A DNA stretch of 64,000 bases. Source: Ulva prolifera (Eukaryota > Chlorophyta > Ulvophyceae > Ulvales > Ulvaceae). Under the pieces are notes generated by a model. The model ran no database searches, was not told the DNA's origin, and saw only the letters and a list, made by a program, of their open reading frames with translations. This document shows, in pieces, positions 15,446 through 61,100 of this stretch (position 1 is its first letter; each line of letters starts with the position of its first letter). Position numbers and translations under genes: made by a program. The stretch is taken from contig CM041203.1 of NCBI GenBank assembly GCA_023078555.1, forward strand, positions 763,481 through 827,480. The letters are read 5' to 3'.

Positions 15446-17731
15446 TCACACCCACGTCGTTCTCGCCCTAATCAGCTCTGTACATTCATCATCCTCACAC
15501 TTTGTGATCACCGTCAGGAACTGCCGGGGGTTCTGCTCGGTGCCGAGCCCCGCGTACAGGCTCGCTTCATCCAGCTCCTCCGTGCTAACCAGAATCTCGT
15601 CACCTGCATGCACCCTGCCTCACCAACCGCACCGCTCGCCCCCATGGCACGCAGCGTATTCCATCCCTCACAGAATACAATGTTCAAGCGTACGCCGAGC
15701 GGATCACTCCACCGGCAACGTGCGCCATAGGCAACCGCCCGTGATCCTCCTGCACCACGTACAACACCCAGGTTTCACCTACACACTCGCGCAACTCTGG
15801 GCGCACCTGCAACCCCCTCTGCCTTATAATCCACCTCATATTGCACCAGGATGCGCGTGCTGAGCAGCTCGTCCGGGATCGAGTCGAGGATCCAAGTGAG
15901 GTACGCCGCGTTGTTGAGGTGCTTGTTCATGTCCATGTACACCGGCGACGCGGTGCGCCGCGTGGTTACCGCGTCGCCGCCGCCGTCCGGCAGCTTCAGC
16001 CGCGTCTCCTCCGCGGCGATGCTGTGCTGCGGGGGGTCCGGCATGAGGGCCTCGTACGCCTCCCGGGCCTCCTTCGGCATGCGCCCGATGCGGCGGGTCT
16101 TGTAGTTGAACATCACCCACGACGATGTCGCGCAGCCGATCTGCTTGCCGGTGGCGACGTCTGTCAGCAGCCAGTCTCGCCGTGCCCCAACCCGCCCCTC
16201 CGACTGGAAGTATGTCTCCACACGGATGATGTCGCCCCTGCAGGCGGCTGTGATGTGTGCGCAGAGGCTACCTTCTTCGAGGAGCTGCCAATTTGACAGC
16301 TTCCCTGGGGCACGCACAGGCATGCAGTGGCGGTGGGAGGATATCAATTGCACATGTGCCCATGACTGAGACCCTGTGGGACCGCCGTCAGGCTCGACTG
16401 GGTGATGAGCTTGGAGCGGTTGTGGCAGACGCATTGCCACCGTACAGTGTGCTTGCCTGTGACGTGCTCTTATCTGTTAGGGATTCCCATCTTCTGATGT
16501 TCCAGGTACCCCATGCGCTCACGCTCTGCGGGCGCATGTATGTGCAGGCACGACCGGCATTCACAGCTGAGACAGCACCACCAGCCCACCAAAGACGCTA
16601 AAATTGATGAGCCTATGTATGTGAGGGTGCATGACAGAGGGCGTTGGGTAAAGCAGGTGCTGCTGCCCTTTGTGGGTCCCGGTTGCATGTAGTGGCTCGA
16701 AGTGCACTCTGCTCGTGAGGGTGTGTGTGTGTTGCCGCAGAGATGACAAATGCGGCCTAATTCTGCAGGTCTGACTGCAGACTAGCAACTTGCTGTGAGC
16801 GAAGGCCATATACGTGGCAGATCATGTTGGGAAAAGGGGGGGAGGGGGGGAAGAAGAGGGGGCATACCAGCGGGGGTACTGCTGCATGCGTATTTGCATA
16901 CGGGTGAGGACAAAGATCAAGTCGAGCTTTGCCAGCTCGGGATCTGCGGCGTAAAACTTCTCACTTCTACCCCGTAGAGAGACTATATGATTGCTGGCTG
17001 CCTCCTGCATGACGTGGTGGATTGTGACAGCACCGTGTGGTGTGCCAAAGCACGGGTTCCACAAGGGGGGGGGGGGGGGGGGGGGGGCGTGGCTGCCTTG
17101 ACAGGGCATGCAATCATGAATCATCCGGGTGCAATTGCATACGCGAGCTGCTACTCTGATGTGGAGGGTAGAATTGGACTCACCGCGGACATGGTCTCTA
17201 CGGTCGAAGACGGGGGTGATGAATTGATTCAGATGGGGGGGGGGGGGGGGGGTGGGGGCAACAAGCGCCCAACGAAACGCAATCGGCACCACCGGCAGGT
17301 CCTACCAGGCACAAGAAAGATCACGACCAGTCCACTATGAAGCTAAATGTCAGTCTGGTATGAAGCTACATCCGTCGATGCCAGACATGTGTTTTGTTGA
17401 ACGCCCTGAACTCCAGTAGGTCCGACCCCGCTGCAAACAGCGCAGACCAGATGGCGCCGTACAGACGAAAGTCTCAACAGAATATATTTCGCACTTGGAG
17501 CAGATTCGATACGGTGACGATGTCACTCTGCTGGTTCGGTCCCACTTCATGTGACCGTATTCGAACTTCTTCCACCAAACGTCTGCCGTTATTCTGCAGC
17601 CTAGGCGTAGGCACGTCCTCCCAGTCATATCCACCTACTTGTGCGAGTGCATGTGGTGTTAATAAGTTGCGTGCACCATGCAGCCTAAACAGGCCGGGAC
17701 GGCACCGAATCTGCAAGCCATTCAATGCCAT
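15446..17731 (-). CDS. FAT: Plastid acyl-ACP thioesterase (FatA/FatB family)
   Basis: Hydrolyses acyl-acyl carrier protein in the plastid to free fatty acid for export. Exons 17731-17495, 17004-16868, 16237-15807 and 15603-15446 join to 320 residues. Conserved stretches: RIRSHEVGPNQQSDIVTVSN, EAASNHIV, LDLIFVLTRMQIRMQQYPRW, GDIIRVETYFQSEGRVGARR, SSWVMFNYKTRRIGRMP, then the catalytic-type DMNKHLNN and WILDSIPDELLS, ending ELIRARTTWV. The first 45 or so residues look like a plastid transit peptide. The usual family Cys after the second hot-dog (Glu-Cys) is Gly here (KAEGVAG), at an exon junction. Donors GTGCGA, GTATGC, GTGCGC. Intron 1 carries long G runs. It diverges from the Lys-rich gene across 297 bp. 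Confidence 0.93.
17065..17252 (+). repeat. Two long oligo-G tracts inside a thioesterase intron
   Basis: G23 at 17065-17087 and G18 at 17235-17252, the latter followed by T and five more G. On the transcribed (minus) strand they are oligo-C, so they may serve as pyrimidine-rich intron sequence. A third G-rich patch at 16836-16860 lies in the next intron. Confidence 0.9.
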
Positions 17732-19936: not shown

Positions 19937-21349
19937 TCAAGCGGGCTTTTCGATGAGAGCATCCCGCCCTGGTCCTACCCCGATCCATGTGCACGGAACA
20001 CCGCACAACTCTTCTACTCGCTGACAATACGCCTGTGCCTGCTCCGGCAGATCCTCCCACTTCCGGCACTCCGTGATGTCTTTGTTCCAGCCGGGAAGCG
20101 TCTCATACTCGACTGTCAGCTCCTCCAGCGAGCCGATGTCCGGCGGAACCGATGACGTGAGCTCCTCTCCCGCAGGCATGATGTACTTCACACCGATGGG
20201 GATCTCGTCGAGGTCTGACAGCACATCGAGCTTGGTGAGGTTGAGGTGCGTGAGGCCGTTGATGCGCACGACGTAGCGCAGCGCCACCATGTCCAGCCAG
20301 CCGATGCGGCGCGGCCGGCCTGTGGTCGTGCCGTACTCCCCGCCCGCTTGCCGCAGCTCCTCCGCGAGTTCATTGAACACCTCGGTCGGGTACGGGCCGG
20401 CGCCGACGCGGGTGGAGTACGCTTTCGCGACGCCGATGACGGCTTGGATGCGGTTGGGGGGGAGGCCGAGGCCAGAGATGACGCCGCCGATGGAGGGGTT
20501 GCTGGAGGTGACGAAGGGGTAGGTGCCGAAGTCGACGTCGAGCATGGTGGCGTTGGCGCCCTCCACGAGGATCCGCTTGCCATCGTCGAGGGCTTCATGC
20601 ACATACGCAACGGAGTCGGTGATCATGGGGGCGATCTCTGCAGCGAGCTTGCTGTACTTGGAGACCTCGTCGTTGATGCTGTATGATTCAAGGTCTGGGA
20701 AGCGGGAGGAGGCATCTTTGAGGAGGGTCTTGAGCTTCTCCTCGAAGGCCACTGGGTCCTTGAGGTCACAGACCCGCAGGCCGTTGCGAGTGGCTTTGGA
20801 GGCGTAGGCCGGGCCGATGCCCCGTTTGGTGGTGCCAATCTTCTTGCCCTGCAACTCCTCCTCACGCAGGCCGTCAATCTCCTTGTGCAGGTCGAAGAGG
20901 AGATGTGCGCGGTCTGAGATTAGTAGACGGCTACGAACATCAACGCCACGCTCTGTCAGCTTGTCCATCTCGTTGACGAGGCTGGGCAAATGCACAACGA
21001 CACCGTTGCCGATAACGCTCTTGGCCCCCTGGTTGAGAATCCCAGATGGAACAAGGTGCAGGGCGTATTTGTTGCCTTCTGAGTCATAGATAGTGTGCCC
21101 TGCATTTGCCCCCCCCTGAGCTCTGGCCACGACATCGTACTGCTGCGCCAAGACATCGACCAGCTTCCCCTTGCCCTCGTCACCCCACTGTGTCCCCAAG
21201 ACCACCGTTACGTCTGGGTTGAACTTCGTAGATCTACATTGTACACATCTGGTGCTAAATTTCTGAACGAATTGTCGGTTTGATGGGGGGTGCAGCCCAG
21301 GCCGTAGCCTTGGCGACGCTGCCGTGGATTTGCAATGCAGGATCGTCAT
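19937..21349 (-). CDS. purA: Adenylosuccinate synthetase
   Basis: Catalyses IMP + Asp + GTP to adenylosuccinate, the first committed step to AMP. Single intronless frame of 470 codons from the ATG at 21349; the open frame extends further but without an upstream ATG. Seen: the GTP/IMP loop [96 protein letters not shown] and [12 protein letters not shown]. The first 45 or so residues ([18 protein letters not shown]) precede the conserved core and are Ser/Arg-rich, as in organelle-targeted plant enzymes; plastid and possibly mitochondrial location is inferred. Being the only clearly intron-free long gene here, it may be a retro-copied or naturally intron-poor locus. Confidence 0.95.
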
Positions 21350-21860
21350 AGCTAGCAGCAGCAAGAATTCTGGCTGACTCGAGCTCGGACACGCATTTTT
21401 CCCCAATCACTCTTGTGCTCCGCGCAGGGCCCATGTGAGCGATTGATTGGGATCGGCTGCTGACACCATACCCCAACGCCACATTCGCACGTCACAGCCT
21501 CATGAGGCCTCACCGCAAAGCGCCTTCATTCACATCCGCGAGAACATACACCAAAGCTTTAGACGCCTACTTCGCTCCGAGAGCTTTCAGAATCAGCGCC
21601 ATCACCTGGAAGTGTATCCCTCACGACGATAATCCGCTCTGCGCATCGGCCGCAGCCCTCGGCTGGTGCATCCTGCGCCGGCACCCAGACGGCCGTTCGT
21701 GGCTGCGGCACTGTTGGCGCGTGGGAATGGTGACCAGGGGTAACCAAGTCTGACCAGATAAGCAGATAGACGGTTCTGCCACCGATTCTCCCTGTGCACA
21801 CTATGTCCCTGTCAGAGCGTGCATGCTGCCGGGCCTGATTCACACTACGGCTGGAAGTTG

Positions 21861-27613: not shown

Positions 27614-28348
27614 ATGTCCGGGAGCAAGGAGGTGATCACCTTTGAAGGGATCCAGGCAAGTTCAATCGAACTGCTGAAGGATCTGAATTCCATCATCTTC
27701 CCTATCAAGTACAAGGTAGTAATATGATCGTTTATCAATTCATGGGACGCCTTGGGCCCTGTTGGAGAGACCGTACCTCCTTGCCCATGTCGCTGATGCG
27801 GCTTAAACCAGACCAACAGTATCTCACGAGGATTCCTTGAGACAGGCAGAGTTGGCCCATGCAGGACAATCTGTATAGAGACGTCCTCACATGTGGGGAC
27901 GTCACACAACTTGCTATGACCAACGGCAAGTGCATAGGCGCAATTGCTTGCCGCCTGCAGATGCTGTCGGACGGATCTGCCAAGCTGTACATACTGACTC
28001 TTGGGGTACTTGAGGCCTACCGTAACAAGGGTATTGGTGCGAGCCCGTCTTCTTTGCATTCGGGTGCAGCTGATGCGATTCGAAACGCCTGACACAGTCC
28101 CATGGCATTCAGGTTCGGAGTTGTTGAAGCGCAGTATGATGGTCTGCTCCTGTGATGAAGTCATCAAACACGCAGAGCTGCACGTTCACACCATCAATGC
28201 TGGGGCGATACGATTTTATAAGCAACATGGCTTTTCCAGTGTGAAAATCCTGCGTGGATACTACTCCAAGCTGACTCCTGGGGATGCAGTCTTGCTACGA
28301 AAGGATATTGAACATGTTCAGGAGACTGAAGAGGTGGCACAAGTGTAA
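27614..28348 (+). CDS. NAA50: N-alpha-acetyltransferase 50 (NatE catalytic subunit)
   Basis: GNAT-fold enzyme that acetylates protein N-termini using acetyl-CoA, working with the NatA complex on ribosomes and in sister-chromatid cohesion in animals. Exons 27614-27715, 27865-28036 and 28113-28348 join to 169 residues, exactly the human length. Seen: GIQASSIELLKDLNSIIFP, then YKDNLYRDVLTCGDV, CIGAIACRLQ, KLYILTLGVLEAYRNKGIG (the acetyl-CoA loop RxxGxG completed across an intron as GIGSELLKR), HAELHVHTINAGAIRFYKQH and the GFSSVKILRGYYSKLTPGDA end. Donors are GTAGTA and GTGCGA; the second intron is only 76 bp. The stop overlaps a TGTAA. Confidence 0.94.
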
Positions 28349-28756
28349 ACAAAAAGCAATCACGTAGCGACTCTCGAGAATTTCTCGAAACAGACATCAG
28401 GGAGTGTTATCAGCATTCTGTTTGCAATCCTACATTCCACACGATCAGCGATTCACTGCAAGCGGGACTCCGGAAGGCTTCCTCCTTCAGATAAGTAGAT
28501 GCACACAGATCACAGATGTTCAACATGCTGCAAGTGTATTGATGCAACGGAGACAGACAGAAACATCGTCCATCTCCGCTGGGGTGCAAGGCAGCACCTC
28601 ATAGCTTCCATATCCACAATACGTCAAAACTATCATTCTCCCTTCCAGTACAGGTCCAAAAAGGTCCCACCACAACCATGCTAAAATGTACATCGCACAT
28701 GCGCTTGATGCCAAGGACACCAAACAGTGTCCAAGATCAGGCTCATGCATAGGAGT
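28349..28756. other. Convergent intergenic region
   Basis: Between the NAA50 stop (+) and the SNF2-like stop (-). Nothing recognisable; two 3' ends are expected here. Confidence 0.5.
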
Positions 28757-31700
28757 CTAATGCAGTGCCTTGGCCGCGCCTGTGAAGGAGGGATGGTGCC
28801 GGAGCACCTCGGCCCGTACAGCTGCGGAAAGCATGTCCGAGCACGAGGCGTCCGATCCGTCGCCGCCACCACACGAAGACGCGCGAGAAGACCCACTCCG
28901 CACGCTGCCCTTGCTCTGCCGTTGCTGCTGCAGCTCCGCAACGCTCTCATCCATGGACCCCTGCGTCACGAGGCGGCAGAATGTGGTCATCGTCGCCTTG
29001 CCGACTTTCAGGCAGCACGCCTCCACTGCTTTCTCAGCCTGCACAATAGCCACGGCCGTCAGCTGATGCAACATTTAGCCTGCCGCACTGGCAACCACTG
29101 CAACAAATGCCAGCTGGCGCATCATGGTGCAAGCACACGGGGTGCGTGCGAGATGGTGGTGCAGGCCTTCCAGACGAGTCGGCCGCAGTGTAGGTGCAGG
29201 AGCGCATCCGCGAAACAGCACCAAAACTACAGCGCAATCAAAGGAACAGGGCGAGAGCATGAGGGAGGCGCACAGCTCGGTTGATGCCGCTATCATAGAA
29301 AATGCAGAGGTCCGCCTTGGATAGATCGAGACTCGGCAGCTGCAGCGCAGCCTGGTGCTGCAGCAACACCACCGTCGCTGCGCCGGCTGCAAAGTCCGCC
29401 GCGGCTCGCTCGGCGGCCTCGGGAGACGACTCGGTGTCTATCTGCACGAAGCTGACGCCGCGGGGCCCCAGCAGTGCCGCGCAGATGTCCAGCACGGCCG
29501 GGAACGATGACGAGATGACCGCCGGCCCGGCCGTTTGCAGCATGTGCATCATTGAGCCGCTCTTGGACGCCTGCTCGATAACGGACGACTGCACAGCACA
29601 CAGCACTCAGTCCAGCACCGCTTGCCCCCAGTCCGACACAAGCGTTCAACCACCGTGTAGATGTCAACAGGCTGTGCATCTCAACGCCCACATGTCAACG
29701 TCCCATTGCAAGATGCGACAGTGGAAACAACACGTTGGAGTACATATGCACGCAATCACACGCAGCAACGCAGGGCCGAGCGAGACAGACCAGTGGCTCT
29801 GGGGGAGGCGCACCGGCAGCTTGAGGTGGCTGAGGTTGGGCATCTTGCAGCAGAGCTTGTGTGCTGTGATGTCTGGCAGCGCGTCCAGGCTATCCAGGTC
29901 ATCCGGAGCACGCAGCACGTCTGCGAACGCAGCACGCGGCACGCTGCCACACGCCGTTTGAATCTCGTGCCGCGAGTCGGAGTAGTGCGACGTGCCCAGG
30001 AGTGGGTGCTGTGCGATCCGATACAGCGAAGTGAAGGCCTCGAGGAGCTTGTCGTGACCGGTGCGTTGCTTGCCTTCCGCCGTGTCTGACCTGCACCGCT
30101 ACCCCCGCGTCAGCATCGCAACAGCATGCACAGATCGAGACGTCTCCGCAGCCATAGTTGTTGGAGAACAGGCTGACATGGAACAGTTATCGGCACAACA
30201 TTTTAGACACGGGCAATGGATGCTGCATTACACCGTCACAAGACAAGGATCCTCGTTAGACGTAACAGATGTGCCGTGCTGAGGCAACAGGAGCAACACT
30301 GCTTAGTTCGCTGCACACATGTAAATCGACACAGGTACCACACAGGGCGGGAGAATGGAGAAGCTAGGGGGAGACACATCCGCTGGTGCATGATGGTGGG
30401 GGGACAGGCAGAGAGGCACAGAGGCTGCTGGGGGCGCACTTGGGGACAGCTGCAGAGCAGCAGGAGGGGACGGGCCGGGCCTCGAAGAGCTGCTGTGCGT
30501 GCTGTGCAGCGTGCTCGCGGTACACACGCGCGTGCGCCTCCGGCATGCAGCTGGATCGCTGCACGTACTGCTTGGGCGCCCACTGGTGGACGACTGCGTC
30601 GGCGGTGAGCTGCAGCAGGTACGGCGCCAACGCCTCCCGCATGCGCTTGCCCTCATGCTGCATGCACTGCCGCCAGTCAGGCACTGACATCGAGCCAGCA
30701 CCAAATGTACACACTAGCAGCCCGTGCCGGACTCGAGCGTCCGTCACAAACACAAAATCAAGCGCAAGCAATCGCAACCCTGCAACAATGCAAACAAGCT
30801 GCCATCGAGTAGCATGTGTGCTCACGGATCGGCTCGTACGTTGCTTCAATAAACTAACATCTCGCAACGAGCCCAGGAATGCAAGTACATGCCTTGATAT
30901 CAAATGTGCCGCCCAGCTACTCATGTTTGGCCCCACATGGGTGTTCAACGCGCACACATCTCGGCCACAGAGCATAGGCGCACGGCATACCTGTTCAGCT
31001 GCCGGGGAGGCGCAGGTGGCGAGCGTCAGCATGTTGCCCTGCCGGCAGTCCATCAGCTGCGGCTGCACCACCTCTAAAAGGTTACGCAGCAGCTGCGAGT
31101 CCATGGCGTCAGGGCCGTCGCATTCGAGCGCGATCCGCTGGTGGGCACCAGTCAGCACGCGCCGCCACACACGGAACTGCGCACGAGGGATGCTCCCGCA
31201 GCCCTCGGTGATTGCCAGCAGCCACGGCACCCGCTGCAGCAGGTCCACTGTGTCTTCTGACACCGCAGTCGCGGTTGAGACGAGCAGCACGTCACACGGC
31301 GGCGTCGCGCCGGCCGGGTCGACGGACTCGAGCCGCGCAGCAAAAGCCTCCACTTCTGCGCGCACGGGCTGCGACGAGCCGCAGTCCTCCAGTGTCGCAG
31401 TGTGCAAGGCCGGCGCCCAGCGTCGGAGCACAGAGCGCCAGCGAGCGAGGTGGTGGAGAGGCGCTACAATGACGGCGACGGCGTGGGGGAGGATGCGTTT
31501 GCGGTTGACAGTTGGGAGGGGCTTGCGGTTGCTACGCTGCATCAGCCCACACCACACAGCGGTCTGCAGGCAAAGCAAGCCACGTGAGCGCTCAAACGAC
31601 ACCTCAGAACACGCACACGGGTGCCAAACATTGCCCAGCCAGGGTACACTTCTGGAATCTCGCAGCCCTCCACGCCCGGAACAGGCATGGATAATCGAGC

Positions 31701-32540
31701 GTAACACATCAACAGAATACATTTTCTCAGCAAGATCTCCAAGATCACAGCTCAAACAAGGTGTTGCCCCTGCTTGGCTGTATTGCCCTGAACTGTGTTT
31801 ACCTACATGCACAGCACTTGCGCTGGGGAAGATGGAGGGGAGCGTACGATGGTGCGAGCGCCGAGACCGCGGTCCATGGAGAGGATGCAGCCGCGCGCAC
31901 TGTGCTGGATGAGGCACGCCATGAATCCCACAGCGGCGACCTGGTACGGCTTCAGGGTAGTGCAGTGTTGCCCCAGCATGCGCACGACGGCCTGCAGGCT
32001 CAGCCCGCCGAACGAGCACTGGAGTTCTGATGGGTTCTCCAGCCTCACAGAGCTCATACCGTCCCTGAAGTACCACAAACCAGACATTAGCTCACACGTG
32101 TTGCCTGCGGCGCCGTGCGGGAGATGATGCATGCATGCTGGCCATTTGCAGGGGGCATGGCAGGAAGGACAAGATGACATGAATTCGCCGCTTGTGAAGG
32201 TTGTGCTGGCAAAGAGACACAAAGTTGGGCTGCAGGGTTCTGTGCGTGGCTGCAGTGAGCTGCAGGCCGACGAGAGTGATACACAGGCCGAAAGGACTGC
32301 ACACCTGTCCTTGCAAATGCATTTGCTGAAGATCTGGCGCAGGTGGTCGCTCTGGCGCTTGCATTCCCCGAGCAGCACGTCATTGCCAATGAGGCTGTCC
32401 TCCAGCAGCTCCAGACCATCCTCTGTGTCGGAGCAGTCCGTCTCCCGCAGCACCGCCGCACTGTGCTGCCCAGCTAGGTCTCCAAAGCTGGCGACGCGTT
32501 CACAGCGCAGCCACTTGTGTGCACTGATGGCCCCTCGCAG
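28757..32540 (-). CDS. SNF2-family chromatin-remodeller-like protein with degenerate ATPase motifs
   Basis: Exons 32540-32305, 32064-31848, 31536-30984, 30683-30476, 30090-29814, 29588-29274 and 29038-28757 join in phase to 696 codons. Both helicase lobes are recognisable: TLKPYQVAAVGFMACLI then CILSMDRGLGARTI (motif I), VIVAPLHHLARWRSVLRRWA (Ia), LAITEGCGSIPRAQFRVWR (motif II region), MREALAPYLLQL, RIAQHPLLGTSHY, and a second lobe FVQIDTESSPEAAERA, ADLCIFYDSGINRA, CCLKVGK and FCRLVTQGSMDES. The catalytic residues are missing: GKT is GART, DEAH is TEGC, and the motif VI arginines are absent. Donors are GTGTGC, GTACGC, GTGCGC (three times) and one inferred GC donor. Likely nuclear; probably a non-catalytic scaffold, by inference. 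Confidence 0.82.
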
Positions 32541-32873
32541 CTGCACAGCAGTAGCGTTGTGAGAGCAGGGTTGTGTGTGGGGGTGTGGGGCATGAGTGCA
32601 CGGCGACCGTGCATTTGCAGTCATACCTGGAGTACAACGTGGCAGCGAGTCGCACACTGGAACCGAGTGGCTCGCCACACTGGTACAGATCAGAATGTGC
32701 ATTGGCGACGAAATGGCTCAGATGTCATAGCGCCCTGACCATTGTGGAACACGATGCAGAATCGGATCCGCTGATGATCAACGGAACCTGACTGTGTAAA
32801 CAGCACTGAGGTCATGCAGCAAAACCGACGCAGTGCGAATCAGCTGAGAAATGCCCCTGAGAAATACCCGTTT

Positions 32874-33593
32874 CTAGTGTACAATTCGAAGCATGTGCGA
32901 GCAGCATGCCTGTAGAAGAGTGACATCATCTGTGTCATCCCCGTGCAGGTGCAGCGGCCGTGGCCGTTTCATGTTGGCGGGCTGGGCACATCTCTCGTGG
33001 CCGTGGGCCGGCAAGCCATCTAAGTGCTGCAGCACAGCAGAGTTGGCGGGACCCTCCTCGTCTGTGGCAACAGCAGCACCCTCGCTGTGCATGGGTGCAG
33101 ATGCGCAGCCGGACGCCTGCCTTGCAGCAGGCATCTCGACTGCACTTGTGTCTGGGGCTGCCAGGGGTAGGCCGAAGACAGGCAAGCACGGATTAGTCCC
33201 GTGGAGACTGCTCTGGCGGAAGCTTTCAGGTGCCCTGTGGCTGGTGTTCATGGAGGTGTGGAAGATGGATGCTTGGGGGTTTCGCTGGTGTGCTGAAACA
33301 GCAGGCTCGGGCTGGGTTTTGGATGATAAAATGGGGAGGGAAAAAGGTGGCCATTTGCGCTTCCCCGAGGGCTGCGAATGGAACGGGCTGCTGGACATAT
33401 TGTCGTCCATCGCTGCGGTCGAGTGCTGTGCAGCTGTGGAGTGATGTGCAGAGGCTCGAGATGCCCAGACCGGACGGCTGTAGGTAGACTGCCTCGACGA
33501 GAATTCAGACTCCCCGGTCTGGTTGAATTGATCGTTCTCGTCCTGTGCGCTCCAATGTTCGATCTCCTGCATTGCTGCTTCCTCCTGCAGCAC
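32874..33593 (-). CDS. Probable N-terminal exon of the SNF2-like gene
   Basis: A long minus frame opening after a CTGCAG acceptor, with in-frame ATGs (MQEIEHWSAQ, MDDNMSSSPFHSQPSGKRK). Ser/Gln/Pro-rich with basic KRKW and KRPRP patches that resemble nuclear signals. It lies just upstream of the SNF2-like exons in the same orientation and a GTCACT donor near its end would be in phase with the exon at 32540. The joint is inferred; it could be a separate gene. Confidence 0.4.
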   Translation of the reverse strand: MLQEEAAMQEIEHWSAQDENDQFNQTGESEFSSRQSTYSRPVWASRASAHHSTAAQHSTAAMDDNMSSSPFHSQPSGKRKWPPFSLPILSSKTQPEPAVSAHQRNPQASIFHTSMNTSHRAPESFRQSSLHGTNPCLPVFGLPLAAPDTSAVEMPAARQASGCASAPMHSEGAAVATDEEGPANSAVLQHLDGLPAHGHERCAQPANMKRPRPLHLHGDDTDDVTLLQACCSHMLRIVH

Positions 33594-33659
33594 GGGCGAC
33601 AGGACTGAGAAAGTACAGATGTGGAGATTGGCGGATATGCATATTGGGATCATCTGCAC

Positions 33660-35095
33660 GAGATCAATTGAACATCATCAATTAGAAGCACGTATGGCAA
33701 GCATCGACGAAGCCCTGCGGTCGTCGGTGACCACTCCTGTATGCTTATGGACCTAGGCGTGGTCAAGCTGTTTCACACTGCGCCAAGGCAAACACAAGCG
33801 TGATGCACAGACTAGTATAATTGCAGTCTGTACAGCTAATTTGGCATGTTGTGTTCCCTCGTTGGCCCTGCTGTGTCGGCGAGGCTGTGGGGCCCATGAG
33901 CATCGGCAGGATCCACACGCAAGGGTGGTTATGCTGGCAATCAAGCATGCCTCACGTAAGGAAATATCACATTTAGCATTTATGAACGAGGCTGAGGCGC
34001 ATGGCACAGTGGAGTGTCAGCGCTCCGCAGCTCCAGCATGCTGAAAATCGCCGCAGCGAGACGTGCTGGCACGCATCAGTGAGGGCTTACCCGCATTTGA
34101 GTATGCAAAAGCTGGTATTTGGGCATGTGAGTGGAGTCATATTGTCCAACCTTTCGAATGCAGTGCAGGTTGGAACGCACCCGTACGGACCGTTAAACCT
34201 GAAGAAAGCACATTGCTACACTGGCCAAATAATGAGGAACAATTTTGCTAGACACTGTATGATGTTCTATAGCGGACGCTTCACTTGTAGAACATGGGAT
34301 TGCGCAGCGTCTCACCCGGTTTGGAAGCAGAGATGACGGCCGACAATAAGAATCATACGAACGAACACCGAATACAATCATGGACTGGAGGTGCCATTGT
34401 ATGTTGGGGATACAACTGTGCAGTTGGGGAAAGAGATGCCATGCGTTTAGATACTGGATACTGTGTCATATCTCGAGCGTCGAAAATATCCCTATAGATC
34501 CCAGAACGGTCCATCTGCCTGTGATTCAACCCGTGGCCACCAAAATATCCGAATATCGCAACGCGCGCTGTGCACCCAGATGTGGATTTTCAGACGTACA
34601 TCCGGGGACGCCACAGCTTCGCATTACCACCTAGCTGTGGAAGTGACGGCGCACGCTCAGGCCAGATCCATGTCCGATGAATGTGCGCTGTGCCCAACAC
34701 CAGCTCGCCGGCTATGGGGCAGATACTTGTGGTAGGCTCAATGGTATCTCTGCGAGATATGTTCTAGAGTTTACTGATTTGCGAATCTAAGTATCTCGTT
34801 CCAGCCCCATTGAGATACTTGGTCAGCGGAGTGGTGGAGATTTGGGGCACGCCTCCCACTAGAGATTCTGGGCGGATACAGAGGCACCACGGACAAATCT
34901 TCGCCGTCAAGAAGTCACATGTGTACACCGTGCTCTGTTGCACCCACTCGAGACAATTGACTCGACCTCGTGCATGGATACCACAGAGGTCAGATGCCAC
35001 CAACGGAAGCTCGTGTACCGCTACAGCAAAAATGTATTGTCAAGCTGATCATCGCAGAGATCAGGCTGTGCAGTGACATGCTGTGCAGTGACCCC
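33660..35095. other. No gene seen
   Basis: AT-richer sequence with only short frames on both strands. No promoter, RNA gene or repeat could be supported. Confidence 0.45.
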
Positions 35096-47400: not shown

Positions 47401-48124
47401 TGCGCAATGCCGGGTCCCGCGACGGTGAACAATCGTAGCGCTGCTGCGTAGTTCACATGCATGCATGTCATGCATGCCAACCTCATACGTCCCATGCATG
47501 CAGGCGGTCGCCGCCGGCGACGTCCGCATCCTGCTGCGCCACCGCCTCGAGTGCACGGTGCTGCGCCACGCGGCGCCTGCGAGGCGGCGCGGCGCGCCCT
47601 CGCCACTCGCGCCCGGCCACGAGTCCCACCTCGTGCTCAATGACGTCTCCATCCACCGTGGCTCACTGCCGTACCTCACCAACCTCGAGGTCTACTGCGA
47701 CGACACGTTTGTCACCAACGTGCAAGGCGACGGCCTGCTGCTCGCGACCCCGACCGGCTCGACCGCGTACTCCCTCGCCGCTGGCGGCTCGATGGTGCAC
47801 CCGTCTTGCGAGAGCATCATCTTCACGCCGATCTGCCCGCACAGCCTGTCGTTCCGGCCGCTCGTGTTCCCGGACCACGTGCAGCTGCGCGTGCAGGTGC
47901 CCCTCGGCGTGCGCACGACAGAGCTGCGCTGCTCGTTCGACGGCTCGCACCACATCGTGCTGTACCCCGGGGACGCGCTTGTTGTGCAGCTGTCGAAGCA
48001 CCCCGTGCCGACGGTGTGTGACGTCGGCGTGTCGCACGACTGGTTCCGCAGCGTGCGGGACGGGCTGTACTGGAACCTGCGCGCGATGCAGGGCGGGCAG
48101 GAGGGGGACAAGGCGGCGGGGTAG
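44433..48124 (+). CDS. NADK: NAD kinase with long N-terminal extension
   Basis: Phosphorylates NAD to NADP with ATP. Exons 44433-44601, 44714-44991, 45357-45701, 46168-46749, 47043-47315 and 47504-48124 join to 755 codons. The catalytic part is plain: HIRLRWLAGRPPNNIM spliced to IVCKPTASVM, FVATLGGDGTLLWACKTMG (GGDG nucleotide site), PFAMGSLGFMTPF, HLVLNDVSIHRG, NVQGDGLLLATPTGSTAYSL, and ICPHSLSFRPLVFPD near the C-terminus. It ends in DWFRSVRDGLYWNLRAMQ as in animal and plant enzymes. The first 260 or so residues are Ser/Ala-rich without a domain, and a second low-complexity insert follows the first beta-strand. Donors are GTGCGG (twice), GTAAGA, GTGTGC and GTGCGC. Exons 1-2 and the ATG at 44433 are less sure. 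Confidence 0.92.
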
Positions 48125-52604: not shown

Positions 52605-55584
52605 CGGTGCGCTGGTTCGCGCTGCAGCAGCCCCAGCGTCGCACGCTTCAGAGGCCCCAGCCTCGCGAGCAGTGGTCCCGCCTGTGAGGGGTCCTCCCAT
52701 GGCAGGCATTTGCCCGTGTCACCCGCAATCTGCGCCATCACCTGCACGCGCACCGGGCACATCCACAGCATGCCTCACAAAGCACGCCGCACGCCTCACG
52801 GTCTGCGCGCGAGTTGCTCTGCATACGGAAGCCCTGCAGCTGTGCATTGATCTATGCGCGCACACCGTATGCATTCCGATCGTGTCTGCACGGTCTGTGC
52901 TGATCTTCAGAACTCTACCTGGGGGGTGCGGGTCCTTCGGCTGACTCGCATGAGGTCCCTGTCAGCAAGTGGCCGACGCCGCTGACTCTTACACACACAC
53001 CATGTGCACATGCCATTCCCACATCTGCCAAGCAGCTGTGCCGGCCCTGCCGCACAATGCAGCCCAGGTGCAGGGACAACAATGAGGTCTTTGAGTCTGT
53101 GGGGGTCACAATTTTGTTAATTAAATTAATTAGGCGGCAAGCGCACCTCAGCTTTGCCGTGCGACATTGTCACCATGCTGCGTCCCCCAAACAGCTCCAG
53201 CACCATCACGCCGAGCGCCCATGCATCCAGCGCGGCGGTGGCCACAATCTCCTGCGCGCCCTCGCGGGCCGCCTGGATCACCTCCGGGGCCGCGTACCCG
53301 AGGCTGTACAGCAGGCGCGCGGGGCTGCCGATGCGCGCCGCGCAGCCAAAGTCGATCAGCGTCCACCGGTTCTCGCGCGTGAGCCACATGGTGTTGCTCG
53401 GCTTCAGGTCCCGGTGGGCGAAACCCGCCTCGTGGAGCTTGGCGATGCAGCCAGCAACCTGCAGCACCACCTGCAGGCAAGCACGTTTTGGTATTATTCT
53501 GTTGGGAGTGGAACACCGATCTGAGAACTGGACTCCGAAATTCAGGTAAGGGGCAGGTGCGTGGAAGGCGCACCGAGTATGCCTGTGCGCGGTCGGGCTT
53601 GCTGCGGGCGCAGAAGATGTCCAGAGACTCCCCCTTCTCCATGATGATGCATGGCGGCAGAGGGTGTCCATGGGGGTCACGCAGGTCCCCGTCAGAATTG
53701 TCATGCATGGCGTACAGTTCCGGCATAAACTGCTTCAGCGGCGAATCTTGCAGGTACAGCCCCGCCTCCGCGTCACACGTCTCCTTAGACACGTAGCACT
53801 TGATGGCCACCTCCAGGCCGTTCACCTGATCTCGTGCGATTTGAACGATTGCCTGCCCTGCAACACCACGGCCTCGCATGCAGGATCACGCATGCCACCT
53901 TGGTGTACGTTCTACGGTGCGAGGGAGTGCCCCAACGGCACGTGTGTCGGCCCAGATCATGGCCGAATCTTGGAACTCAAGGGGGCGTACCGCCCTGGAA
54001 GCGCTGGAAGGCGCCGTCTCCAAGTAGCTGATACTTGCCCAGGAACGGCATGCCATCGCCGTGCAGGTTGAGCTGGTGGTGCATGTAGACCATGGCCTTC
54101 TCGGTGCCCGCCTTCTGCCCTGGCGGCGCTTGCGGGAGCATCGTCGCAAAGCCGAAGGTGCCGTTGGTGTGCGTGCTGCAGGCCGTCCAGCTCGTCATCG
54201 TCGTGGCAGACTGTATGTTTGCCGAGTGGTGGTTGCGGAGCGACTCCGGGGGGAGCGCTCCTACAATGGAGCTGGAGGCGGGCTTTGGCGGGGCGGAGAA
54301 CATGCGGGAGGCCAAAGCTTCCTGCACAACATACGTTCACCTGCTTTGCACCATACGCCGCAACATACGCAGGACGGTAACGTGCTGAAGATGCAGAGTT
54401 ACTGCGCCCGCAGCTTGGCACACGAGCGACGCCAAATCTGAATCCTTGAACAGCTCGGCATGTGCCAGTCGCACGGTCAGGGCAGGGTTGCCGCCCCCTG
54501 TTCTCAATGCGGGACGGACTCACATGTACATGCTTGAGTAGGGCCTGAGTGCCCGTGCCATACTGTGAAAGTCCAGTGATAAGACCGCTCTACCACTGGA
54601 CTTTCACAAAAGCTGGGTCCTCTGAGATTGAGGGGTCTTATCACTGGACTTTCACACATACGCTGGGACCATCTCGGAACCTCGACACTCTCAGCTACAC
54701 CACGAATGTGGCGATGGCGCGTGCACACCGCGGCCACCTGCGCAGTGCAGCATGCGCTGGAAGTTGCAGCCGCGCGCCTTTGAACTGCTTTCCTCCACGT
54801 CGCCCCGCTGCCTCTGTGAGCGACGTCGGTGTCGCCACCACGCCCACAGCGCCACAGTGAGCAGCAGCAGCAGCGCCGCCGTAATCCCGACGGCGATGCC
54901 GGCGATCGCACCGTCGCCGATTCCGCTGGATGTGTCCGATTCCCGGCAGCCTCCGTCTTTGCATCGCTGCCCGGCCGGGCATGGCACCTCAGCGCTGCAG
55001 CCAAGCTCTCCAGCATCGGCCGCATCGGCGGGGAGGATCGGAACTGTTGTGCCATTTAGAGGCGGTGGCGCGGCTGCAGGGGTGATGGCCTGCTGTGGGG
55101 GATTCGAGGCCGCGGAGCCTAGATTCCCTGCTGGGGTCGGGGCACGAGTGGAAGGGACGAGGGTTGGCGCTGGGGCCTCGGTGGGTGGTGTGCTCGATGG
55201 CGTGCCGCCTCTGCAGGTGGTGACCGCGAAGCATTCGCTCCCGGGGTTGCAGTCAGAGTTCTTGCCGCTGGGGCATGCATCTGCGCTGCCACAGGCCGCC
55301 GCGTCTGTGTAGTCTTCCCCGCAGAATGCGTTGGAGATCACGCGATCATCGGCGGCGCAGGATTCCACCGCAAAGCAACTCTGCAGCCCCGCGCATTCCG
55401 CATCCTCCGCGCCCGGGCATTCGTCTTCACACTTCCGTGAGTCGTTGTAGTCGTCTCCGCACCAGTTGCCGGCCTGTGCGGCCACAATGCTGGTGAGAGA
55501 TGTGGCAAGAAGGAGTTGAACCACCACTGCCTGGTATGCTGGGGCACGCCTGGGCGCGGGCGTGCCAGCAACGGTTTGCACCAT
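52535..55584 (-). CDS. Receptor-like protein kinase 1 with WCG cysteine-rich ectodomain
   Basis: Predicted plasma-membrane receptor kinase. Exons 55584-54778, 54321-53991, 53857-53574, 53470-53147 and 52741-52535 join to 650 residues. Residues 1-36 form a signal peptide (VVVQLLLATSLTSIVAAQA). Two Cys-rich repeats follow (GNWCGDDYNDSRKCEDECPG, AFCGEDYTDAAACGSADACP), a Pro/Thr-rich stalk, a short LGCSAEVPCPAGQRCKDGGC, a membrane span near 227-250 and basic RHRRRSQRQR. The kinase starts at QGGGQAIVQIARDQVNGLEV with VAIK, then AHRDLKPSNTMWL, LIDFGCAAR and GYAAPEVIQ, all catalytic residues present. The first donor is GC (GCGCGC) where the second gene has GT. Ligand and kinase class are unknown. 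Tandem duplicate of the gene at 58162. Confidence 0.92.
54565..54655. repeat. Short element with perfect 22-bp terminal inverted repeats
   Basis: Arms at 54565-54586 and 54634-54655 are exact reverse complements (gtgaaagtccagtgataag... at the left). A third copy of the outer half (ccactggactttcac) sits at 54593-54607. Lies in the first intron of receptor kinase 1 and is absent from the same intron of the second gene. Looks like a miniature inverted-repeat element; no clear target duplication. Confidence 0.8.
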
Positions 55585-58161: not shown

Positions 58162-61100
58162 TCACCCCGGGCCCTGCTCCGTGCTGGCGAGCACCCTATC
58201 GCACGCATGCACAAAATCCTGTACAAGGAGGCGGTTCGCGGGGTCGCGCTGCAGCAGCCCCAGCGTCGCTCGCTTCAGACGCCCCAGCGTCGCGAGCAGC
58301 GGGCCCGCCTGCTCGGCGTCCTCCCACGGCAGTGCCTTGCCCACGTCGCCCGCAATCTGCGCCATCACCTGCACGCGCACCGCCCACATATACAGCATGC
58401 ATTACACGGCATGCGGTTGTTGTGCAATGCAGTCGCGCGTTGACCCATACGCGCACGCCGTTTGTGTTTTGGTCGTGTCTGCGCTGTCTATGCCTTTGTT
58501 CAAAACTCAACCTGTGGGTGCGGGTCCATCGACTTGCATCAGTGCTCCGCCAGTCGGTGGCCGACCCACTTGCGTCTGCCACCATGTGTACATGCCACGT
58601 GTACATCTCATGCCGGCTCTGCCACACACAGCAGCCCAGTAGCACCACAGTGATCTTTGTCATGTTATGGGGGTGGCAGCCAGGCGGCAAGCGCACCTCA
58701 GCTTTGCCGTACGACATCATCAGCATTCTGCGGCGCCCGAACAGCTCCAGCACCATCACGCCGAGCGCCCATGCATCCAGCGCGGCGGTGGCCACAATCT
58801 CCTGCGCGCCCTCGCGGGCCGCCTGGATCACCTCTGGGGCCGCGTACCCGAGGCTGTACAGCAGGGGCGCTGTGCTGCCGATGCGCGCCGCGCAGCCAAA
58901 GTCGATCAGCGTCCACCGGTTCTCGCGCGTGAGCCACATGGTGTTGCTGGGCTTGAGGTCCCGGTGGGCGAAGCCGGCCTCGTGGAGCTTGGCGATGCAG
59001 CCAGCGACCTGCAGCACCACCTGCAGGCACAGGGGCTGGTGTCATTCTGCCGGGAACAGAAGCTGCCTCTGAAAAGTATCCTCAGACATTTGGACGTGCC
59101 AATTATCTACTAGTGTTTCAGGGGGCCCTGTGGACCAGCACAGACGCAGACGGCGGGCAGGTATGGGTTTTCATGCGAGCGCAACGCTCCTCAGACTGCG
59201 TGGATTTCATGCATGCATGCACACCATGCATGTTGCGGTCCTGTGGAACTAGAATGGCAGAGGGGGGCTGCGCAGCGGTGTGCAACCCTCTCCATGCCCA
59301 AATGAGTTATCCCTCCCTAGCCTCATGGTTCACACACCAGGTCAGGCATACTGCATGAAAATTGCACCATGCTGGCAACAATCGTATGCATGGAGGCCAT
59401 CCATAGGTCGGGCCGGGAGGGGGCCGCAGCCACCTCCTCTGCAGCTCGGGTGCTGGATTGAGGCATCCAATCTGCAGAGCCGCATGCATGGTGTGCTTTC
59501 TCGCCGCTCGTGGCAACCGTGCGGGTGCCCCGTCAATGCTGCAGCAAAGACACAGGAAAGACACGCAGACATTGCGCCAAGGCCATGGCGGGGTGCGCCA
59601 ATTGGAGCCTTCAGGTCGAAGTTGGAGGTCCGAGGTGAGAGGAAGGAGCACGGAAGCCACACCGAGTACGCCTGTGCGGGGACCGGCCTGCTGCGGGCGC
59701 AGAAGATGTCCAGAGACTCGCCCTTCTCCATGATGATATATGGCGGCAGCGGGTGGCCATGGGGGTCAAGCTGGTCCTTGTCAGCATTGCCGTGCATGGC
59801 ATGCAATTTCGGCATGAATTGCTTCAGCGGCGATTCATGAATGTACAGCCTCGCCTCCGCGTCATATATCTCCTTCGACACGTAGCACTTAATTGCCACC
59901 TCCAGGCCGTTCAACTGGTTTCGTGCGATTTGGACGATCGCCTGCCCTGCAACACCACGGCTTGAGCGTCAGCACCACGCATGCCATAGCGGCGCATGAT
60001 CTGTGGTGCGAGGGAGTGCACAGACGGCAGCTGTGGGGTTGTGGGATGACCATGCGTGCGCGTGTGAGCCAAGAGATTAAACCGTGGCAGCGGCCTTCAC
60101 ACACTTGGCGCGTCGGGGGGAGGGTCACATGCAGGGGACGGGGAAAGGGGTGGCATGCATGCTTCTCATATGCATGAAAGAGAGCCCGGAGATCGGGTGC
60201 GCATGGGCAGACAGCAGCATCTGCGTGTGTCGGGTGGCATGGGCAACCAGCAACTTGAGGCACGCACAGGAACCCCCCCCCCCCTTGGCGGTTCCATGCC
60301 ACCTGCTGTGTAATCAAAGGTGATACCAGCGCACTATGGGAGCCGACCGGAATGGTAGCGGCACACACACAGGCACCGTGCCACACGCCGCCGGCACGTA
60401 AACGATTTCCTGGAGTACACAAAGTTGCTCCTCCGGCACATGTGCGTCATGGCGTATAGCGTCATTCAAGTGCAGCATAGGCGTGTCGGAGCCCCCGGCG
60501 GATGCGCACCGCCCTGGAAGCGCTGGAGAGGCCCCTCTCCAAGCAGCTGGTACGTGCCCAGGAACGGCTTGCCCTCACTGTGCAGGTTGAGCTGGTAGTG
60601 TATGAAGTCCATGGCTTCGCCGGGGCCCGCCTTCTGCCCTGGCGGTATGCGCTGGGACATCGTCGCAAAGCTGAAGGTGCCGTTGGTGTTTGCGGTGCTG
60701 GCGGTCGAGGTTGTCCCCGTTGCGACAGACTGTACGTTTGCGGAGTGGCCGCTGCGATGCACTTCCGTCGGGGGTGCTGTCGCCCCTGCTCCCGCAGTCG
60801 CGCTGGAGGTGGGCTTTGGTGGCATGGAGGATGTGCGGGTCGTTGCCGCTTCCTGTACAACACATGTCCACCATATGCTGCATCATGGGAGGGGGAAGCT
60901 CACGTGCCCGAAACGCAGACTGCCCACCAGCGCATCTGCATACCACTGACACCGAATCTGATTGCACTGTCTGGGCCCAAGATGGTCCCTTAGAGTTTGA
61001 AATTTGGCGCAGGCATAATGCAAGGGCACAACAGGGCCGCGGCCGCACGACCTCACATGGCTCAAGCAGTGCCAACGCTATTCTCGTGGCAGGAAACCGT

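Follow-up and report, generated by a model that had tools for sequence, protein, structure and literature searches.

The minus strand of the 64,000-nucleotide stretch of the Ulva prolifera genome analysed here (the window) carries a gene that appears to descend from the Fun30/SMARCAD1/ETL1 line of SNF2 proteins and to encode a pseudo-ATPase that would bind chromatin, or serve there as an adaptor, without using ATP; we give this reading a probability of about 0.6. Seven core exons (32523-28757) with GT-AG splice sites and matching phases were joined into an open SNF2-type protein that contains no internal stop and ends in a TAG codon at 28757. Splice sites, phases and frame agree in this with the initial annotation, which had proposed seven exons in phase with an intact reading frame. 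The same annotation had placed the gene's upper limit at 32540. Because a likely small exon and a possible N-terminal exon lie farther upstream (Table 1), this limit is not the end of the gene, which probably starts beyond it. The modelled core comprises 729 residues when the tentative small exon is included. The candidate N-terminal exon is of low complexity, includes two basic runs (GKRKWPP and KRPRP) and has a GC3 of 0.647 over a 232-codon frame, which is weaker than that of the core; the position of its downstream splice junction is uncertain. Although the exon itself is uncertain, it was scanned against Pfam and gave no match, CUE domain(s) included. Three donor sites are available for exon 6 (29814, 29787 or 29760), and the choice among them alters only the linker preceding lobe 2.

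Table 1. Exons, motifs and subfamily segment of the SNF2-type gene, in window positions.
Feature	Position	Strand	Basis or remark
Possible N-terminal coding exon, MQEIEHW...	32940..33572	-	Open frame; tentative
Possible small exon E2a	32627..32679	-	Donor CAG/GTATGA, phase fits E2; splice sites and phase only; tentative
Exon E2, before lobe 1 (SAM-key position in Fun30 proteins)	32305..32523	-	GT-AG and phase
Exon E3, start of lobe 1 (LKPYQVAAVGFM) to degenerate motif I	31848..32064	-	Splicing and alignment
Motif I, GLGART	31851..31868	-	One inserted residue; Arg at the Walker A Lys position
Exon E4, 191 codons, remainder of lobe 1, motifs Ia to III	30991..31563	-	
Motif II, TEGC for DEGH	31198..31209	-	Alignment
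Motif III, ECDGPDAM for TGTPxQN	31102..31125	-	Alignment
Exon E5, inter-lobe stretch	30440..30666	-	
Exon E6, IAQHPLL and Fun30-type insert	29787..30090	-	Donor ambiguous
Fun30-subfamily segment, DITAHKLCCKMPNLSHLKL (fft3: DIELHNLCCKFPSINSFQL)	29817..29873	-	Alignment to fft3
Exon E7, lobe 2, motif IV and degenerate motif V	29274..29588	-	
Motif V, LQHQAALQLPSLDL for LLSTKAGGLGINL	29322..29363	-	Alignment
Exon E8, motif VI region, C-terminal tail, stop codon TAG	28757..29038	-	
Motif VI, AVEACCLKVGK for QAEDRCHRVGQ	28997..29029	-	Both conserved arginines replaced (Cys, Lys)

The 3' end of the gene is adjoined by plus-strand pieces at 27646-28348, which we take to resemble an N-acetyltransferase of the NAA50 type; a Pfam scan of the piece at 27998-28348 (+) gave no match. 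Elsewhere in the window we identified adenylosuccinate synthetase in a single open frame (19940-21406, -), a part of an acyl-ACP thioesterase, consistent with a plastid (15778-16476, -), and the C-terminal part of an NAD kinase (47429-48121, +). A piece of a protein kinase was seen among the frames at 53129-53734, 53980-54336 and 60469-60882 (all -), and two open frames that resemble each other, at 54 kb and 60.5 kb, appear by eye to be copies of one gene.

An ATP-dependent SNF2 remodeller is marked by intact motifs I, II, III, V and VI, and all five are degenerate in this gene by comparison with SMARCAD1 and with SNF2 genes elsewhere in the genome. The readings GLGART, TEGC and CCLKVGK that the initial annotation gave for motifs I, II and VI were found as stated, as were the structural strings that it had quoted (YQVAAVGFM, VAPLHHLARW, IAQHPLL and FCRLVTQGS); its statement that every visible ATPase motif is degenerate holds and extends to motifs III and V, which it had not listed. 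Motif I lies in the context MDRGLGARTIT, as against DEMGLGKTIQ. Motif II still has its glutamate, and motif I its GLG and T, so the motifs are aptly called degenerate but not absent. Motifs II, III, V and VI each lie within one exon. Other splice sites might in principle restore GKT and DEAH, an outcome that the initial annotation had set against its own reading. In the three minus-strand frames of positions 28500-34000, no contiguous GKT or DExH was found, nor any contiguous match to GK[TS], DE[AGS][HQ], TG[TS]P or R[IVLM]GQ; the sole match to any of seven patterns was AGGVG at 30640, out of the gene's frame. Because these frames lack any contiguous canonical motif, alternative splicing is unlikely to restore the motor.

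The loss is selective: catalytic columns are at the level of alignment noise, and structural columns are above it. The gene keeps 9/31 conserved catalytic columns (mean of shuffled alignments 0.309, with 32 of 60 shuffles as high), whereas the 19 of 24 SNF2 loci that gave rows in this comparison retain 77-100% of those catalytic columns that they span, a range to be read with the fact that these loci also helped to define the columns. Other conserved columns are kept in 30/54 cases, against a mean of 0.292 and a maximum of 0.48 in 60 shuffles, and hydrophobic-core columns keep their class in 63/82 (mean 0.522 and maximum 0.653, likewise in 60 shuffles). For the hydrophobic columns, the shuffled-alignment control of 0.522 was used instead of the raw base rate of 0.276, which overstates the signal. 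The reversed protein scored lower than the real one, with 39/67 hydrophobic columns and 14/46 identities.

Coding signal was evaluated with codon scores trained on 16 of the 24 SNF2 loci. GC3 in the exons is 0.80, and the overall GC of the introns is 0.54-0.61. In frame, the gene has a synonymous score of +0.24, as opposed to -0.22 to -0.26 in the introns; one antisense frame is also slightly positive (+0.07). The codon bias of the gene is coding-like; 12 of the 16 other SNF2 loci score higher and four lower. The exons contain no stop in 711 codons, compared with a mean of 13.5 and a minimum of 4 in 500 dinucleotide shuffles, a result that overstates the case because openness partly guided the choice of exons. 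The claim of a pseudo-ATPase with a maintained frame thus survives on the selective loss, the codon bias and the lack of contiguous motifs; judged from sequence, a constrained pseudo-ATPase is the most likely reading and a plain pseudogene is unlikely.

By predicted fold and descent, the protein appears to be a member of the SNF2 family. The initial annotation had recognized both helicase lobes, and profile searches bore this out for lobe 1, where the SNF2-related domain (PF00176) scored 36.7 bits in a rough join of the exons and 38.5 bits (cut-off 24.9), but not for lobe 2, where Helicase_C (PF00271) reached only 12.1 bits in the rough join, under its cut-off of 23.5, and was not listed at E 0.01. 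In comparisons with PDB sequences, lobe 2 aligns lengthwise to fft3 and SMARCAD1. The rough join yielded 46 PDB matches to E 0.01 (best E 2.3e-12), the top five of which are fft3 (three chains), SMARCAD1 and FUN30. Exons 5-6 lack catalytic motifs; searched by themselves, they gave 18 matches, with fft3 (three chains, best E 4.9e-4) and FUN30 (0.018) in the top four places and SMARCAD1 missing from the 18. Similarity to PDB sequences thereby favours Fun30 over CHD.

As a diagnostic of the subfamily, we used a segment between HPLL and lobe 2 that we defined ourselves from the fft3 and SMARCAD1 alignments. The fft3 version of this insert finds the gene at E 2.8e-6, the SMARCAD1 version only at 0.35. 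A tree of 15 rows, with catalytic columns removed and 12 of the 24 SNF2 loci entered (at least 150 aligned columns), groups the protein with fft3 and SMARCAD1 with a support of 77/71, not starred, in a set where letter make-up was flagged for all three. Its end branch is very long (4.41; the median is 1.19), and the sequence most identical to it in the set belongs to another subfamily (L023; 25% over 194 columns). The SAM-key region of a Fun30-type chain gave no match in the gene by sequence comparison, made without a domain profile; in Fun30 proteins this domain sits before lobe 1 (PMC10355287). Similarity thus gives good support to descent from the Fun30/SMARCAD1/ETL1 line, and the tree gives moderate support; the initial annotation had not named a subfamily.

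The genome assembly (88.9 Mb, 44 contigs) contains 61 exon-wise matches to PF00176, which we grouped into 24 places; the gene described here is not among them. Several of these places have intact motifs. A genome search with the predicted protein recovered the gene itself, in seven stretches, and a single further place at E 0.087, which looks by eye like ISWI (L016, also L020). A recent duplicate of an active gene was rejected, as that was the best other match in the genome. All 24 matches to lobe 2 of fft3 fall inside the 24 SNF2 places, and neither the fft3 nor the SMARCAD1 insert found anything under E 0.87 in them. One locus, L035, was considered as a canonical Fun30 and rejected by eye, its signature being SWR1-like; the insert probes had no match there. 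The searches turned up no active Fun30-type gene in the 24 other SNF2 places, and an intron inside the insert segment or an assembly gap could conceal one. A search with exon E4 found no relatives in viral contigs or genome contigs. Two more SNF2-type genes lie on the same contig (C8) at 645-649 kb (L040) and 690-693 kb (L021), so that with the gene in the window (792-796 kb) three of the 25 places in 89 Mb, by our grouping, fall within about 150 kb; L040 and L021 show no Fun30 segment by the insert probes. A survey of plant SNF2 genes reports only DRD1, ALC1 and Ino80 as missing in its two green algae (PMC3842944).

An intact protein frame combined with lost ATP-using parts suggests that the protein is probably a non-motor binder on chromatin. 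Its two lobes would still fold, and the two-lobed body may still bind DNA, nucleosomes or partner proteins, while ATP hydrolysis and nucleosome movement would be lost in the predicted protein. An ancestral part in recruitment, for silencing or repair, could then be kept without the motor. The ETL1-type protein of Arabidopsis is CHR19. Chromatin silencing is a fair guess for the retained role by analogy, because CHR19 contributes to silencing with SUVR2 and CHR27/28 (PMC4260354). More tentatively, and with less confidence than in the reading as a whole, we suggest that the organism may have exchanged its only Fun30/SMARCAD1-type remodeller for a version, maintained by selection, that works without ATP; functions would then have been separated in nature. 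If so, the retained surfaces would reveal which work of Fun30 in silencing or repair needs no motor.

The main rival reading is that the gene functions through an N- or C-terminal part and that its SNF2 lobes, only weakly constrained, are a relic it could do without. MOM1, which silences with its SNF2 remnant deleted, is the precedent (PMC2507757). The very long branch and the Helicase_C score below the Pfam cut-off agree with such a relic, which we nevertheless regard as doubtful: retention in the hydrophobic core and in the conserved columns outside the catalytic set exceeds alignment noise, and the lobes form most of the modelled core, next to a candidate N-terminus without a recognized domain. 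A decaying pseudogene whose frame is open by chance would account for the single copy, the change in all catalytic motifs and, again, the long branch. Neutral sequence this diverged would be expected to have neither an open frame nor a GC3 signal nor preserved structural columns, and the gene has all three, even when the count of stops is discounted for the way the exons were chosen; we consider decay very unlikely.

Two further alternatives concern the motor itself. The protein could be a non-catalytic partner that anchors, activates or inhibits an active SNF2 ATPase of another subfamily, candidates for which are present among the 24 other places, several of them with intact motifs. CHR19 of Arabidopsis copurifies with SUVR2, which itself copurifies with CHR27 and CHR28 (PMC4260354). 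Fun30-type remodellers, on the other hand, appear to act as single subunits (PMC10355287), and the sequence gives no pointer to a partner, which makes this arrangement improbable. As the initial annotation proposed, the protein may scaffold an active remodeller or be its dominant partner; the genome searches and the insert probes of the 24 SNF2 loci found no active Fun30-type paralogue for it to partner. Finally, ATPase activity might persist through non-canonical residues, given the glutamate retained in TEGC and the GLG and T in GLGART. This is scarcely credible, as motifs III, V and VI are lost as well, including both conserved arginines of motif VI, and the K603R change alone abolishes nucleosome sliding by yeast Fun30 (PMC10355287).

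Published work holds that no function of the Fun30 subfamily can do without the ATPase domain (PMC10355287). A lineage in which the gene is kept after the loss of every catalytic motif, with no active copy found in the genome, would provide a natural test of that view, and would make the Fun30 line a second, independent SNF2 branch, besides CHD3/MOM1, to drop the motor while keeping the protein. The initial annotation knew of no described family with this pattern. In general this does not stand, as MOM1 and At5g44800, a CHD3-like protein with mutated motor residues, have been described (PMC2507757); for the Fun30/SMARCAD1 lineage, searches of the open-licence literature yielded no described pseudo-ATPase. 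What is new here is the subfamily, together with the lack of an active copy among the places searched; loss of the motor was already known in CHD3/MOM1.

The gene resembles Fun30, fft3, SMARCAD1 and ETL1 in its best sequence matches, in the order of both lobes and in the segment between HPLL and lobe 2. It differs from them in having no intact motif I, II, III, V or VI and, from the proteins as described, in giving no SAM-key or CUE match, with the qualification that no SAM-key profile was used and the N-terminal exon is uncertain. With MOM1 and At5g44800 it shares an SNF2 domain with a partial or mutated motor, and MOM1 itself retains a silencing function (PMC2507757). Those two proteins are of CHD3 descent, whereas the U. 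prolifera gene appears to be of Fun30 descent. In Arabidopsis MOM1, only the motifs of lobe 2 are kept and the protein works through CMM2, reported as missing from Chlamydomonas (PMC2507757); in U. prolifera, both lobes remain. The closest experimental parallel in motif I is Fun30-K603R, a laboratory Walker A mutant with the same Lys to Arg change, which is catalytically inactive and does not rescue silencing (PMC10355287). That single engineered change costs Fun30 its silencing, whereas in the U. prolifera gene all motifs have been changed naturally and the gene has apparently been retained.
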